64,000 nt of DNA from the IMG/VR virus record IMGVR_UViG_3300046690_000339, positions 1 through 64,000 of that record. The stretch is one strand, 5' to 3'. Origin of the DNA: a virus. The notes under the pieces were generated by a model. The model searched no databases. It saw only the letters and a program-made list of their open reading frames with translations, and was not told where the DNA came from. This document shows, in pieces, positions 70-60,035 of this stretch (the first letter of the stretch is position 1; every line of letters begins with the position of its first letter). A program made the position numbers and the translations under genes.

Positions 70-315
70 CTACTCCTGTACTAGCACCCAACTGGAGGTT
101 GCTCGAGCCGGACAAAACTGGGTGGTGGAATGGTGGGCGATGAATGATTCTCCGCACTTCTCGCATGACTTGGCCTTCCGGAAAGGTCCACGTTTCGCAT
201 CTCGGGATTTTGTTCGACAGCGCGCGTTGCAATACTTCCGCTTGTGCCCGTCGAACCCAGCCCCACAGTCCTTACATTCCTGCATATTATCGCGCTCTGC
301 GTATCCCCTGCGCAC
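70..315 (-). CDS. Small protein with two zinc-ribbon knuckles
   Basis: About 81 residues with two Cys-rich knuckles, CKDCGAGF...YCNARC and CEKCGESF...TTQFC. The spacing resembles the N-terminal zinc ribbons of the HNH protein at 20.2-21.0 kb (VNCVGCGREF...TTKFC), so this may be a shortened relative of that endonuclease; no HNH motif follows. The longest form starts at a GTG overlapping the upstream gene; an ATG at about 288 is the alternative. It is the last gene readable before the left edge. The zinc motif is clear, the function unknown. Confidence 0.5.
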   Translation of the reverse strand: MRRGYAERDNMQECKDCGAGFDGHKRKYCNARCRTKSRDAKRGPFRKAKSCEKCGESFIAHHSTTQFCPARATSSWVLVQE

Positions 316-550
316 ACTCCACCCCCGTTGAACTCATCTGCTTCTTGTTCTTTCCACCCGGGTGACGACCGGCACCGAGGTTGCGGCTAACCGTTCGTGG
401 TTGCATGCCGTTGAGCGCGTGTCTTCTCATGTGATCGTCCATCGATGACTCCGGAAAGATTACGGTTTTCATTATGCACGTGCTGCACACCGAGCCAGTA
501 ACTATCTGATGGCCGACACGGATCTGTCGCCGTTTGGGTCTGCTGTTCAA
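287..550 (-). CDS. Small zinc-finger-like protein
   Basis: About 87 residues from a TTG codon, with a single CSTC...HMRRH motif that could form one C2H2-type finger, followed by a basic tail. The stop lies at the start of the next zinc protein, as expected for genes read in series. The start is uncertain because no ATG lies near the N-terminus. No family is recognised and nothing shows its target; DNA or protein binding would be a guess. Confidence 0.4.
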   Translation of the reverse strand: MNSRPKRRQIRVGHQIVTGSVCSTCIMKTVIFPESSMDDHMRRHALNGMQPRTVSRNLGAGRHPGGKNKKQMSSTGVECAQGIRRAR

Positions 551-6729: not shown

Positions 6730-7308
6730 TCATTCAGCATCTCCAAACAGCGACCGGATTTTAGACGCCCTTTCCTGTATGTACTTCCGCTCCTCCTCGG
6801 GAGGCTCCGGCGGTGCCGGCGCTTCGTACCTTTCCATCTTCTCGCGGATTGTCGCCCTCAATTCCCTTTGACTCTGAGCAGCTATGTCCCAGCCCTTTCC
6901 AGGCCAGCGTTGATCGAGCTCCAGATAGGCGTCGACTGGATCGCGTTTCGACTCCAAGAACCGCAGCACGGTTCTAAGCGCGTCCTCTCCCTCGGTGATT
7001 TTTTGTGGATCGCGGGCCTCGAGCTGTTCCCCCAGCTGGGTGATCGGTTTTCTGGGCTCGGAGTCTTTCACCTTCTGCCAGAGCTTCTCCCTGCCCTCGG
7101 TAACAAAGCCGCGCATACGCTCTTTGCTGGGAAACATGCCGGGAGGCATCTTGTCGCAGGCAAGGTTCGCGGCCTCGAAGAAAATCTCGTCGTGCTCTTT
7201 CTGGAAGTCCTCCCACCAGTCAATGCGGACCTGCGGGTCGAGGTGGCCGGTCTTGCCGTGGTATTTCTCAACCCATGTAAAACACTCGTTGAATGTCTGT
7301 TCGGTCAT
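6730..7308 (-). CDS. Replication-associated protein, possible helicase loader
   Basis: A 192-residue protein, helical throughout. The N-terminal 75 residues (ECFTWVEKY...WWEDF...ANLACDKMPPGMFPSKERM) resemble the helicase-loader type of N-terminal domain, in which a short helix bundle ends with an MP..FP segment. The C-terminal half is charged. It overlaps the replication-initiator-like gene by 4 bases (ATGA), the usual order for initiator followed by loader. The loader role is an inference from position and helical pattern. Confidence 0.45.
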   Translation of the reverse strand: MTEQTFNECFTWVEKYHGKTGHLDPQVRIDWWEDFQKEHDEIFFEAANLACDKMPPGMFPSKERMRGFVTEGREKLWQKVKDSEPRKPITQLGEQLEARDPQKITEGEDALRTVLRFLESKRDPVDAYLELDQRWPGKGWDIAAQSQRELRATIREKMERYEAPAPPEPPEEERKYIQERASKIRSLFGDAE

Positions 7309-8069
7309 GGCTGCGCCTTGGCCTTCGCACGTTTAGCGTTCTCAATCGCCCTTTGCCTGATCTCGGCCCGGTTCATAATCAGAGGTGTTGCCACCGGCTC
7401 TTTGTCAGGCTCGTAGAGGTCCATCCAGCCGCTGCGCACGGCTTTTTCCACTATCTTGGTCGGGTCATGGCCTTTGTCCTGGGCATCGGACAAAAACTTG
7501 TAAATCATCTCGACTTGAAAGATCGTTAAACGCTTGCCTTCGCCCTTCCAGAACCGCTCAAGACGGTTCCACATATCCCAGCCGCAAATCTTCGCCGGAT
7601 GCTTTTCGAGTCCTAGGTCATTGTCTATGACTAGCTCCGCGCGCGCGCGAAGAGGGGGCGCGCCAGCGCACCCGATAGAAGATGAAGGGGAATGTGAAGG
7701 GGAAGGGGAAGGGGAAGCGCTGTTTTCCGCACTTTCCCGCTGATTTCCGCTGGTGTTGATTTCATTGAGTTTTGGCGTTTCGCGCCGGTTCTGCTTACCC
7801 ACATAGCTCTGATACTTGTAGAAAATTTCGGACGGAAAGAAGTAATAACCCTCCTCATCAATGCCCATCAGTCGCTCCAGAACCAGCTCGGCAAAGGCAC
7901 TCGCCATGTCGGCGCTGGTGCGGTTTTGGCGACCTGGAAAGATTAGAAGCCGCAACTCCTCAGGATCGCGTTTAGGCAGTCTGCAATCATCCCTGGCGTG
8001 CGGTACGCACCAGGTGTAGAGCAGTGCCGCGAATTCCGATACGCGGTTGAGCTTCCCCTCAATCGACAA
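7305..8069 (-). CDS. Replisome organiser / initiator-like protein
   Basis: A 254-residue protein. The first 110 residues look like a winged-helix domain of phage replication initiators (AALLYTWCVPHARDDCRLP, then FAELVLERLMGIDEEGYYFF). A low-complexity linker with runs of Ser-Pro (SPSPSPSHSPSSS) follows, then a C-terminal helical domain (FLSDAQDKGHDPTKIVEKAV) like DnaD/O-type proteins. Such proteins bind the origin and recruit helicase. TTG is the likely start, without a strong ribosome site. The linker-coding DNA is itself a GGGGAA-type repeat at about 7690-7730 and may contribute to origin structure. Confidence 0.6.
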   Translation of the reverse strand: MSIEGKLNRVSEFAALLYTWCVPHARDDCRLPKRDPEELRLLIFPGRQNRTSADMASAFAELVLERLMGIDEEGYYFFPSEIFYKYQSYVGKQNRRETPKLNEINTSGNQRESAENSASPSPSPSHSPSSSIGCAGAPPLRARAELVIDNDLGLEKHPAKICGWDMWNRLERFWKGEGKRLTIFQVEMIYKFLSDAQDKGHDPTKIVEKAVRSGWMDLYEPDKEPVATPLIMNRAEIRQRAIENAKRAKAKAQP

Positions 8070-14671: not shown

Positions 14672-16686
14672 GTTTGCCGCCTTTCCTTGTCAATGAATGT
14701 GATCCCGCGATGATGAAAAAAAATCCTTGTCACGCCGTGATGGTAGAGAAAAATCCTGGTGAAGCCATGCTGCGCGCCGCTAACCGGCTGCGTGCTAATA
14801 ACCTCGGGCGAATAGCCTGTTAGGGTCAGGGCAGCAGTGCCGGGCGTGATGGTGTTTTGCGGGATATCGGGCGCGTTGCCGATTAAATTCAGGGCGCCGG
14901 ACGACGGTGTCAGGATGATGCCTTGGACAACGGTTGGTGAATTCCCGTTAAACGCTAGAGTTCCGGCATCTGGGGCGAGAGATCGGGCCGCCAATATGTT
15001 CGCCGCGCTACCATTTAGCGTCAGCGCGCCAGCCAATGGCGTGATTCGGCTATCTGTGCGCGTGCTCGGCGCGATGCCGACCAGGGTGAGCGTTCCGGTA
15101 TCCGGCGTGATCGACTGCCCGCTCGTGACCGTCGGCGCGTTTCCCGTAAAACTTAGCGCGCCCGGATCCGGCGTGATGGTCTTGGCGATGTTTGGCGGGT
15201 TGCCGTTGAAGACCAGGGCACCAGTGCCAGGAATGATGACGCCCGCCGAACTGGGCTGATAGCCGGTTAAAGTTAAGACGCCCGCGGCAGGCGTAATAAA
15301 GTCATTCTCGCGCAGGGTTGGCGCAATCCCGGTCAGTGTCAGCGTGCCCGCAGCGGGCGTGATAATTGCGCCGTTTACGAGCAACGGCGCTGCACCAGCC
15401 AATGTGAGAGTCCCGACTTGTGGCGTGATTCGTATGTCTTGCCGAAGTTCCGGCGCAATGCCGTTTATGATCAAAGCCCCAGCCTGCGGTGTGACGACAA
15501 CTCCCTGAACCGCGCCGGGTATCACGCCTGACAGCGTCAATGCGCCTGCTGAAGGCGTTAAGCGGAAATCAATAATGGTTACCGGCGCAATGCCTTGGAG
15601 TGCTAGGTCGCCCGTCTGGAGCGTTATTAGAGCGGCTTCTAGTATGTCGGGAGCATACCCTTGCAGGGTGAGCATGCCCTCTTGAGGCGCAATCTGGGTT
15701 TCGCCGGGAAAGTTGGGTTGGTAGCCGGTTAGAGTCAGCGAGCCGGTACTCGGTGTTATGGATTCGCTGGCAGTTAATTCCGGCTCTATCTCGGCGAAAG
15801 TCAGTGCGCCGGTGCTCGGAATAATCGCCCGGTCATTCCGGCCTGCAATACCCGTTAGGGTCAAAGCCCCTGCGGCCGGCGTAATAGTGCTGCCCTGAAC
15901 TCCGTTTGGAGCAATACCGGATAGGGTCAACGCCCCGACTGTTGGCCTGATTAGCGTTGACTGTACCGCCGAAGGAGCGACCCCGGTCAGCGTCAGAGTA
16001 CCGACTGTCGGCGTGATGACGGTGCTTTGGACAACCGCGGGCGCGTTTCCGGAAAGGGTCAACGTGCCGACCGTAGGAGTAATCGCATCGGCGCGCGCAA
16101 GGCTAGGTGCGTTGCCGCTTATTGTCAGGGCGCCGACTGTCGGCGTGATCAGTCTGCTTTGAACCGGGCTCGGGGCGACGCCCGAAAGTGTGAGCGATCC
16201 GACGCTGGGAGTGAGACGGAAATCCGTGAGAAGGGTTGGAGCGTTACCGGTGAGCGTCAGCGTCGCAGCAGGAGGACCACGGATCAGGGTTTGAGTCGGC
16301 GCCGCTGCGATCGGGACGAATGTCATCGCCCCGACTGTTGGAGTGATCAGAATCGATTGCACCGCCGATGGTGCGACACCGGCAATCGTCAAAGTTCCAA
16401 CCGCCGGCGTAATGAATATATTTTGCCGCGTGCTAGGCGCGACACCGGCAAGAGTCAAAGCGCCGATTGTTGGCGTCAGTACCGTACTTTGAACCGGACT
16501 CGGCGCAACGCCGCTTGCGGTCAATGTACCGACCGCTGGCGTGATGAAAATATCCTGGCGGACGGTCGGCGCAACACCGCTTGCGGTCAGAGTGCCGACT
16601 GCTGGTGTAATTGTCGGCGACTCGCTGACAACCTCGGCAACTCGAACGAAGCTAAAATATTTGCTCGTTCTCTGGATAAAACTCAT
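14668..16686 (-). CDS. Giant repeat protein, about 28 x 22 residues
   Basis: 672 residues, nearly all made of one repeat: ITPxxGxLTLxGxAPxxxQ plus a variable end, about 28 copies of 21-22 residues with no insertions between them. Each unit is short strand-turn-strand, so a long beta-solenoid or fibre shaft is likely. The C-terminus is different: HGFTRIFLYHHGVTRIFFHH, three short His-rich decads. Two more copies of the main repeat are found near the end of the gene upstream. Probably a tail fibre or surface-binding protein; the copy number could vary by recombination. Confidence 0.65.
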   Translation of the reverse strand: MSFIQRTSKYFSFVRVAEVVSESPTITPAVGTLTASGVAPTVRQDIFITPAVGTLTASGVAPSPVQSTVLTPTIGALTLAGVAPSTRQNIFITPAVGTLTIAGVAPSAVQSILITPTVGAMTFVPIAAAPTQTLIRGPPAATLTLTGNAPTLLTDFRLTPSVGSLTLSGVAPSPVQSRLITPTVGALTISGNAPSLARADAITPTVGTLTLSGNAPAVVQSTVITPTVGTLTLTGVAPSAVQSTLIRPTVGALTLSGIAPNGVQGSTITPAAGALTLTGIAGRNDRAIIPSTGALTFAEIEPELTASESITPSTGSLTLTGYQPNFPGETQIAPQEGMLTLQGYAPDILEAALITLQTGDLALQGIAPVTIIDFRLTPSAGALTLSGVIPGAVQGVVVTPQAGALIINGIAPELRQDIRITPQVGTLTLAGAAPLLVNGAIITPAAGTLTLTGIAPTLRENDFITPAAGVLTLTGYQPSSAGVIIPGTGALVFNGNPPNIAKTITPDPGALSFTGNAPTVTSGQSITPDTGTLTLVGIAPSTRTDSRITPLAGALTLNGSAANILAARSLAPDAGTLAFNGNSPTVVQGIILTPSSGALNLIGNAPDIPQNTITPGTAALTLTGYSPEVISTQPVSGAQHGFTRIFLYHHGVTRIFFHHRGITFIDKERRQT

Positions 16687-57453: not shown

Positions 57454-58146
57454 CTACGCCTTCACCATTTGCAGAATACGCTGCCTTCCCGGCCACGGAA
57501 TTTCTGTGAGCGAGTAGCCTAGATCGCTCGCGACTCTTGCGTAAAACGAAAGTGGATGCTTGAACTGTTTCAGCCCGGTCCGAGTGTTGTCAGGCAGGTC
57601 TGTAGGAACATAGCTGAAATAGAAGTTACGGCTGCGCGGCGCGATATCTGCGATGGTCTCGGAGACGATAGCGGACGGAAGATGAATAAAAACCGAAAAC
57701 GCCCATGCGTAATCAAAGCACGGCCAAGTCGGCCAAATCTGCGCGTCAAAAGAATCCACGAAAACAGGACCCTTGAGCGCCCAGGCTTCTGTCACCGATA
57801 GAGTACGGCAGTGCGCCAGCGCTTCGGCAGAAATATCGATACCGGTATAATTGCCCGCGTTGAGACAGGGAACAATCGCGCGCGCCAAGCGGCCAGTACC
57901 GCAGCCGAAGTCGAGCAATCGATCCTCCGGACGTAGTCCCTGCGCGATCAAGAAATCCCGCTGAACTGCACCGTAAAACTCCCAATCCCCACCGATGGCT
58001 TGCTGCGGATCGGCTTTCACGCGGGCGTCGGTGTGCTTGCCGTAGGCGGTGAGAAAGTCGTTCTCGCGGTAGAGTTCGACGATATCAGGGTCGCGGCTCG
58101 ACTTGTCCGTGAGCCGAGCGATTTCATCCTGGGTAATCCGGTCCAT
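57454..58146 (-). CDS. Class I SAM methyltransferase
   Basis: 230 residues: RLLDFGCGTGRLARAIVPCL (SAM loop), YTGIDISAEALAHCR, FDYAWAFSVFIHLPSAIVSE and FYFSYVPTDLPDN. A standard Rossmann methyltransferase with an N-terminal helical lid (YRENDFLTAYGKHTDARV). Substrate probably a small molecule or sugar of the module. Confidence 0.8.
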   Translation of the reverse strand: MDRITQDEIARLTDKSSRDPDIVELYRENDFLTAYGKHTDARVKADPQQAIGGDWEFYGAVQRDFLIAQGLRPEDRLLDFGCGTGRLARAIVPCLNAGNYTGIDISAEALAHCRTLSVTEAWALKGPVFVDSFDAQIWPTWPCFDYAWAFSVFIHLPSAIVSETIADIAPRSRNFYFSYVPTDLPDNTRTGLKQFKHPLSFYARVASDLGYSLTEIPWPGRQRILQMVKA

Positions 58147-58655
58147 TAATCTCCGTGCGCCTTGCGCATGTGGTTGTCGCGCGAGCTCGGCGTCGGAAAC
58201 GTCAGCACGCAGTCATCGTCGGTGCACTCGAACTTATAGCCGGTGCCGCCGCTTCTGTGCTTGATCCGGTTGTGAGCGTCAAGTCCGCGATGATTGAGGA
58301 ACGGCTTCTGATGCTCCTCACAATAATAGTCGCCGCGAGCGCTACTCTTTCGCGCTATGCCGTGCTTATTCAGCCTGTGATTGTTGAGATGACCAAGGAC
58401 GGCATAAGAGGTCTCGCACCCGGGATGATCGCATCTGAACTTCAAGCGAGGGAGATCGACGGGCAGGTCTTCGGGCAGCTTCTCGACCAACGGCAAACGC
58501 GCGTGGTCGGTATCATCGGACAGATCGCCAATGAAGGCACGCGGCATATCCGTGAACCTGGCTTTCAGCGTCACGTTCTCGCCAGCCGGAAACTTAAAGC
58601 CCTCGTGGAAAAGCTCGTCCAGGTCTGAGGTTTCTAGTTCGATAATGTGCCGCAT
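58146..58655 (-). CDS. Protein with three C2H2 zinc fingers
   Basis: 169 residues from ATG with AGGTGACAG. After an acidic start (IIELETSDLDELFHEGF, EKLPEDLPVDLPRLKF) come three fingers: CDHPGCETSYAVLGHLNNHR..KH, CEEHQKPFLNHRGLDAHNRI.KH and CTDDDCVLTFPTPSSRDNHM..AH. All follow C-x2-4-C-x12-H-x3-4-H or close to it; the middle one replaces a Cys by His (C-x2-H). Tandem C2H2 fingers are common in eukaryotes and rare in bacteria, where Ros-type proteins carry one. DNA or RNA binding is likely. It overlaps the methyltransferase gene by one base. Confidence 0.75.
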   Translation of the reverse strand: MRHIIELETSDLDELFHEGFKFPAGENVTLKARFTDMPRAFIGDLSDDTDHARLPLVEKLPEDLPVDLPRLKFRCDHPGCETSYAVLGHLNNHRLNKHGIARKSSARGDYYCEEHQKPFLNHRGLDAHNRIKHRSGGTGYKFECTDDDCVLTFPTPSSRDNHMRKAHGD

Positions 58656-58827: not shown

Positions 58828-58852
58828 GTAGAGCGTTTATCATACGCTCTAC
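58828..58852. repeat. Inverted repeat
   Basis: GTAGAGCG-TTTATCATA-CGCTCTAC, a perfect 8-bp stem across the end of the glycosyltransferase gene. No T-run follows in either direction, so it may be an mRNA processing or stability element rather than a terminator. Confidence 0.5.
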
Positions 58853-59556
58853 AATTTCCAATGCTCTTTTAGCCATGGATACTTTTTCTTCTGTTCTTTG
58901 CTCCAGGGAGGATATGCGCCGCTAGTAAACACCATGCAGGCGGCCGGCGCCTGGCGCGATCGCGCCGGTGTCCAGTTGATCTTCATCAAACCGTCGTCGT
59001 TGCTCCACTTGCCTGGCGGTGGATACATCTTGAAGCTCATCCAGCCCTGATCGGAGCCACGATTGCCCGCTGCGGCGGCCTGGGTCGGCGATACGAGCGG
59101 ATCGAAGTCTTCCCATATATAAGGATGGGTCCCGGTCCGGAGCAGATAGACACCGCCGGCGATCTTGCCCCAACCGAAGCGCTTGTCGCACCAGCCGACG
59201 AAATCCTCGTCGCGGTCGACCAGCGGCCTAATGTCGCCGAGGATGACACAATCGATATCGAGCGACAAAATCCGCTCACCCAACACGACTGCTTCACGTG
59301 AAAAACTCCATAACCGACAGTAACAGCTTGGAAATCTCTCGCCGTGCGGGCTCTTGATGTCGTCGAAGCGCACCGGCATCGGCATAGCCTCGATGCGCGG
59401 ATCGAGATCTTTAGCGTCGTCGGTAATGCAGATGAAGCGAAACTCGCGCGGATACCAGCGGGCAACCATGGCGTAGAGCACGTTGACGTGTTTGGCACGA
59501 AACTTTCGCCGGCTGCTGTTCGGGTCGCGCCATTTCCAGGTGACGAAGGAAATCAT
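58849..59556 (-). CDS. Glycosyltransferase-like protein
   Basis: 235 residues: FVTWKWRDPNSSRRKFRAKH, FICITDDAKDLDPRIEAMPM, ILSLDIDCVILGDIRPLVDR with DxD, GGVYLLRTGTHPYIWEDFDP, RGSDQGWMSFKMY. The same plan is seen in 48368..49117. GT8/GT-A-like enzymes move a sugar from a nucleotide donor. It begins the sugar module. Confidence 0.75.
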   Translation of the reverse strand: MISFVTWKWRDPNSSRRKFRAKHVNVLYAMVARWYPREFRFICITDDAKDLDPRIEAMPMPVRFDDIKSPHGERFPSCYCRLWSFSREAVVLGERILSLDIDCVILGDIRPLVDRDEDFVGWCDKRFGWGKIAGGVYLLRTGTHPYIWEDFDPLVSPTQAAAAGNRGSDQGWMSFKMYPPPGKWSNDDGLMKINWTPARSRQAPAACMVFTSGAYPPWSKEQKKKYPWLKEHWKL

Positions 59557-59805
59557 TCAAGGGAGTGCGGCCTGGGCCGATGACTGGGTAGGTGGCCGGT
59601 CACTCGGCGCCGCACGAATGGCAAATTTCCAGAACGAGCATTCTCTAACGTATGAAGGGACAACTGGAATCCCTTCATATCCTGCACGCCCTGAGCCTTT
59701 GCAGGTCGGGCAAACATCGGGGCGGAGCTGCATTGGGGGTTCCGGACTCATTGGAAATCTAAATTGATAGCCTTCGCCACAGCAGGCTTTGCAATCTTCG
59801 ATCAT
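59557..59805 (-). CDS. Small DnaJ-type zinc protein
   Basis: 82 residues from ATG with GAGGGA upstream. CKACCGEGYQF and CPTCKGSGR are a CxxCxGxG pair as in DnaJ zinc fingers. The end is Pro/Ala-rich and includes the 21-bp repeat also found at 8.4 kb; in the -1 frame the same DNA reads EICHSCGAE and stops, so the natural end may be there. Confidence 0.55.
   Translation of the reverse strand: MIEDCKACCGEGYQFRFPMSPEPPMQLRPDVCPTCKGSGRAGYEGIPVVPSYVRECSFWKFAIRAAPSDRPPTQSSAQAALP
59593..59613 (+). repeat. 21-bp repeat, copy 2 (other copy at 8369..8389)
   Basis: Identical to 8369..8389 in the same orientation, 51 kb apart. On the minus strand GGCGCCGAGTGA gives Gly-Ala-Glu-stop in one frame at both places. 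Confidence 0.8.
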
Positions 59806-59861
59806 CGCGTTTCCCTCGGCGTAATTTGTCTGGCCGCTCGCCGGCTCAGCGCGTTTATAGC

Positions 59862-60035
59862 TCACCGCTCCTGGCTCTCGATCTGCTTCAGCGCGAGCTC
59901 AATCGCCTTGGATATTTTGGTTTGGCCGGTCTCCCAGCGAATAATGCTCAGCCTCTGCACCCCAATGCGCTTGGCGAGCTCCTCCTGAGTGAAACCGAGC
60001 CGCTCGCGGCGTCTTTTCATATCTTCGCCAGTCAT
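59862..60035 (-). CDS. XRE-family regulator
   Basis: 57 residues: MKRRRERLGFTQEELAKRIG, VQRLSIIRWETGQTKISKAI. A complete XRE helix-turn-helix and little else, ending with a charged helix. It follows the ParB-like gene and may autoregulate this small-gene operon. Confidence 0.85.
   Translation of the reverse strand: MTGEDMKRRRERLGFTQEELAKRIGVQRLSIIRWETGQTKISKAIELALKQIESQER

Follow-up and report, generated by a model that had tools for sequence, protein, structure and literature searches.

A predicted three-finger C2H2 zinc-finger protein encoded by an accessory gene of a tailed phage

Results

Three tandem finger units in P0001

We examined a 64,000-nucleotide window (positions 1 to 64,000) of the IMG/VR viral record IMGVR_UViG_3300046690_000339 and found that one of its open reading frames (ORFs), here called P0001, encodes three consecutive zinc-finger units with classical ligand spacing. 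The record is 79,899 bases long and represents a tailed phage, since it carries a lambda-type portal and a GpA-type terminase. We lean toward regarding P0001 as a true accessory gene of the phage. Its product would bind zinc through a tandem array of three classical C2H2-type fingers, of which the second is CHHH, joined to an acidic N-terminal region; the functional half of this reading is a prediction. Judged from its sequence, the product most likely binds nucleic acid in a zinc-dependent manner, as an accessory (regulatory) protein.

Finger units were searched for as C-x(2,4)-[CH]-x12-H-x(3,5)-H, and matches began at residues 75, 112, and 144 (Table 1). Of 200,000 composition shuffles of the protein, 3,541 contained one unit, 8 contained two, and none contained three. 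The ligand spacing and this shuffle test bear out the first-pass annotation, which had described three consecutive near-classical units with a Cys-to-His change in the middle one. Fingers 1 and 3 have the full classical C2H2 ligand set, finger 2 has His115 in place of its second Cys, and the protein has no Cys (of five in total) outside the finger ligand positions. The strict form, C-x2-4-C-x12-H-x3-5-H, occurred in the whole window only in P0001, and across ∼0.7 million translated residues (the window and the first loci compared) the canonical pattern was found only in P0001 and its homologue. The ORF starts with ATG, has a Shine-Dalgarno-like AAGGTGA just upstream (by eye), and ends in a stop codon that shares bases with the start codon of the following gene (TAATG).

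The resemblance to known fingers extends beyond the ligands. We built a profile of non-ligand positions from 18 finger matches (one of them out of register) in the arrays of four other IMG/VR contigs, L039, L040, L046, and L049. Against this profile, fingers 1, 2, and 3 scored better than 99.1, 99.8, and 97.4% of shuffles, respectively (P = 0.009, 0.002, and 0.026). All three have aromatic-x-C and C-x3-[FY], and fingers 1 and 2 have Leu at +10. Fingers 1 and 3 are alike beyond their ligands (P = 0.002) and the other pairs are not, a likeness that is suggestive only of internal duplication. When eukaryotic sequences were compared as PDB chains, the weak matches (E values of 0.026 upward) were nearly all C2H2 proteins, including KLF10, TFIIIA, ZNF410, and WT1; the sole exception was Aspartoacylase-2, with an E value near 1.

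Conservation and selection

A viral contig, L001 (IMGVR_UViG_3300045120_000411), encodes a relative that is 47% identical to P0001 over residues 1 to 124, with a conserved segment at residues 1 to 38 of the N-terminal region; a search for family matches to that region (residues 1 to 69) found none. The contig breaks off in finger 2, and within its preserved part the relative keeps every ligand: the complete set of finger 1 plus the C-x2-H pair in finger 2. Loss of Cys or His ligands in homologues, which the first-pass annotation had named as damaging to its proposal, is not seen in the preserved part of this one. Nonsynonymous (dN) and synonymous (dS) divergence, estimated by the Nei-Gojobori method, was 0.30 and 0.87 overall; for the fingers the values were 0.14 and 0.53. 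This indicates purifying selection on a protein-coding gene between the two phages, and because the partial copy has retained the metal-binding residues as far as it extends, P0001 looks like a working accessory gene.

Some results weigh against this reading. P0001 has only the one homologue, and conservation of finger 3 is beyond check because L001 ends before it; this finger is also acidic (isoelectric point [pI], 4.9) and carries Arg where Leu is usual. The Pfam zf-C2H2 family (PF00096) matched P0001 with an E value of 0.0083 and 17 bits, below the curated cut-off of 25.2, with residues 142 to 167 as the best stretch; another zf-C2H2 search reached at best 18.4 bits. AlphaFold2 run on the two-sequence alignment gave an uninformative model, with a predicted local distance difference test score (pLDDT) of 32.5. 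With arrays of other loci in the alignment, the finger region was modeled as three beta-beta-alpha units (mean pLDDT, 74; predicted template modeling score, 0.33, which is what beads joined by flexible linkers should give), a compatibility test and not independent proof, being partly circular because the alignment contained C2H2 fingers. Finally, an inverted-repeat search for operators near the gene found none, and neither an operator nor an RNA target of P0001 was identified. The low Pfam scores and the first model are what would be seen if the motif had arisen by chance or had decayed and did not fold as fingers. We consider such a motif very improbable in view of the shuffle tests of units and of non-ligand positions, the purifying selection and conservation in L001, and the intact reading frame of the accessory insertion.

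Predicted function

Arrays of this kind usually bind nucleic acid, and an accessory DNA-binding regulator is therefore our first choice. Each finger would fold around zinc as a beta-beta-alpha unit, the basic finger and linker half (pI, 9.1) would bind nucleic acid, most likely DNA, and the N-terminal half (pI, 4.5) may mediate dimerization or protein contacts, with the protein acting as an accessory regulator. The linkers between the fingers are GIARKSSARGDYY and RSGGTGYKFE, and the residues at helix positions −1, 2, 3, and 6 (classical numbering) are V-G-H-N, N-R-G-A, and T-S-S-N in fingers 1, 2, and 3. Without TGEKP linkers and with few base-reading Arg or Lys residues at positions −1, 3, and 6, we expect binding that is modest or depends on shape and does not follow a Zif268-like nine-base code.

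In Foldseek searches of PDB, the matches listed were C2H2 proteins, including TFIIIA, CTCF, WT1, and REF6 (best E value, 6.5e-4). Among viral proteins, the matches were for the most part C2H2 proteins from viruses of eukaryotes; proteins of Microbacterium phages Burro and Arete matched weakly (E values of 0.1 to 0.2). The fold matches include a complex of TFIIIA with RNA (1un6), the linkers are basic, longer than TGEKP and unlike it, and every finger has H-x4-H, all of which would suit fingers whose target is structured or double-stranded RNA and not DNA, like those of the JAZ/ZFa type and TFIIIA fingers 4 to 6. However, the fold matches are mostly DNA complexes and P0001 did not match Pfam zf-C2H2_jaz, so we regard RNA binding as unlikely.

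The acidic finger 3 and the few base-reading residues in the helices also fit a protein-interaction module, directed at a host protein (in anti-defense or host takeover) or serving as a scaffold for the neighboring sugar enzymes, and the accessory location is typical of morons. Since the finger half is basic overall and a search of P0001 against defense families gave no match, this role too seems doubtful.

An accessory gene in a sugar cassette

The gene lies between a glycosyltransferase-like gene and a methyltransferase gene, MT230 (Table 1). Further downstream, MT230 is followed by an 82-amino-acid ORF, two FkbM methyltransferases, and two glycosyltransferases. In L001 the 235-amino-acid glycosyltransferase-like protein is 83% identical and its gene likewise directly precedes the finger gene. 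In other relatives the order differs: a methyltransferase directly follows the 235-amino-acid gene in L051, L052, and L053, with no finger gene between them, and follows after 17 bases in L055, while in L056 to L063 and L065 the next gene is an FkbM gene. The finger gene was not found by tblastn in any of these 13 loci, and a PF00096 search over the relatives' whole records returned nothing convincing. Because the closest relatives have the same neighbors without it, P0001 is an accessory insert in a conserved phage glycosyltransferase/methyltransferase cassette, which does not require it. The earlier description of the protein as part of a sugar module therefore holds for its location; it does not hold for P0001 as a fixed component. 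A foreign origin could not be argued from composition: the GC content at third codon positions, 0.706, is within the range of neighboring genes (0.54 to 0.81) and is thus uninformative on origin.

Table 1. Coordinates of P0001, its parts, and other genes in the window
Feature	Position	Strand	Description
Three-finger protein gene (P0001)	58146..58655	-	ORF, 169 amino acids; homologue in L001
Acidic N-terminal region	58449..58655	-	Residues 1-69, pI 4.5
Finger 1	58362..58433	-	Residues 75-98, C-x4-C-x12-H-x4-H, CDHPGCETSYAVLGHLNNHRLNKH
Finger 2	58257..58322	-	Residues 112-133, C-x2-H-x12-H-x4-H, CEEHQKPFLNHRGLDAHNRIKH
Finger 3	58155..58226	-	Residues 144-167, C-x4-C-x12-H-x4-H, CTDDDCVLTFPTPSSRDNHMRKAH
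Upstream neighbor, 235-amino-acid glycosyltransferase-like protein	58849..59556	-	Related to annotated phage glycosyltransferase
Downstream neighbor, S-adenosylmethionine (SAM) methyltransferase (MT230)	57454..58146	-	Start overlaps finger-gene stop
87-amino-acid protein, separate gene	287..550	-	One C2H2-like motif, C-x2-C-x14-H-x3-H

Two further observations concern this neighborhood. MT230 also matches the PADLOC model mad2 (E value, 5e-10), which probably reflects no more than the SAM methyltransferase nature of both. A 102-amino-acid ORF near the finger gene (59557-59865, minus strand) matches the DnaJ-type CxxCxGxG zinc motif with an E value of 9.4e-5, below the cut-off.

Distribution and comparison with known zinc-finger proteins

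We found no relatives of P0001 in 50,697 phage records (INPHARED), in 72,556 plasmids (PLSDB; only E values of 4 or worse), or in the GTDB species genomes by a short peptide-pattern scan, which finds close relatives only. Second viral scans for further homologues gave no result. A finger-1-like DNA pattern hit six IMG/VR contigs, with an open frame only in the known homologue, and strictly classical two-finger DNA patterns hit 12, with convincing arrays in four (L039, L040, L046, and L049). The C2H2 ORFs of the prophage-like contigs L040 (2656-3210, minus strand; three fingers) and L046 (∼7239-7842, plus strand; four fingers) adjoin phage terminase, portal, and major head genes, which places tandem arrays elsewhere in prophage-like DNA. 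The kind is therefore known, though rare. These two are multi-finger C2H2 arrays like P0001, but they have C-x2-C fingers, mostly 7-residue linkers, and long low-complexity, Pro/Gln/Ser-rich tails, and tblastn over the compared loci found no similarity to P0001. The arrays of L046 and L049 had no match in the 50,697 phage records. The L040 and L046 products are possibly proteins of animal-associated bacteria that act on the animal host.

Compared with eukaryotic classical C2H2 proteins (Krueppel/TFIIIA type, PF00096), P0001 shares the 12-residue C-to-H spacer, aromatic-x-C, C-x3-[FY], and three tandem units, but it is phage encoded, lacks TGEKP linkers, has His as the second ligand of finger 2, and falls below the Pfam cut-off. 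Ros/MucR proteins of alphaproteobacteria are also small prokaryotic proteins with a zinc-finger motif; they have a single finger with a 9-residue Cys-His spacer in a larger domain (PMC9779718), and P0001 is not one of them because it has three fingers with 12-residue spacers. The first-pass contrast between eukaryotic tandem arrays and the one-finger Ros/MucR type thus stands for geometry, which in P0001 is eukaryote-like, but arrays are not confined to eukaryotes, as L040, L046, and archaeal zinc fingers (PMC3541406) illustrate. Classical zinc fingers have been called practically absent from bacteria (PMC3541406). Among archaeal and archaeal-virus zinc-finger proteins, ∼74% have one finger and ∼20% two, and most are shorter than 100 residues (PMC3541406). 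AFV1p06 and other archaeal-virus proteins resemble P0001 in having eukaryote-like geometry in a prokaryotic virus, with one ligand replaced in AFV1p06 (PMC3541406), whereas they have one or two fingers to its three and no sequence match was found. A PHROG search of P0001 gave nothing better than an E value of 0.02, with no dedicated AFV1p06 profile compared. Other kinds of zinc-finger protein have been described from tailed phages: lambda Ea8.5 and a staphylococcal phage 812a protein have a zinc-finger fold and suspected regulatory roles, the latter with a different C-terminal domain (PMC4195576; PMC10127798). Kistimonas genomes have been reported to be rich in zinc-finger proteins (PMC12491435).

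Three fingers in tandem are a typical design in animals, plants, and fungi but have seldom been seen in bacterial viruses, and we found no description in the literature of C2H2 arrays as sequence-specific regulators in such viruses. It is a tentative idea, which we hold to be rather unlikely, that a nucleic-acid-binding protein with three fingers of eukaryotic style evolved in a tailed phage or was captured by it, and that the phage employs this protein to regulate its own genes or those of the host in a sequence-specific way. Together with the L040 and L046 arrays, the tandem array conserved in tailed phages offers concrete cases for weighing independent rise in prokaryotic viruses against a eukaryotic source, and the same cases bear on what multi-finger arrays bind.

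Other features of the record

The single C2H2-like motif that the first-pass annotation had also noted, in an 87-amino-acid protein near the start of the window (Table 1), is present but only C2H2-like because its spacer is 14. Its L001 relative is 72% identical, has the same four motif residues, and is encoded shortly before the terminase small subunit; a Pfam search of the protein gave no match.

In the GpA-type terminase large subunit (record 76291-79416, minus strand; L006:16292-19417), a LAGLIDADG intein interrupts the P-loop. The intein has Ala as its first residue, Thr directly after it, and W, C, and T residues (by eye) that resemble those of class 3 inteins. A 144-nucleotide direct repeat (99%) and a 46-nucleotide perfect inverted repeat lie at L006:9768-9956 and 14886-15097 (record ∼69.8 and 74.9 kb), ∼5.1 kb apart. 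The repeat-bearing region between terminase and ParB, which is either a mobile island or a chimeric assembly, is absent in L001 and contains an IS1-like transposase along with a second ORF that resembles a terminase.
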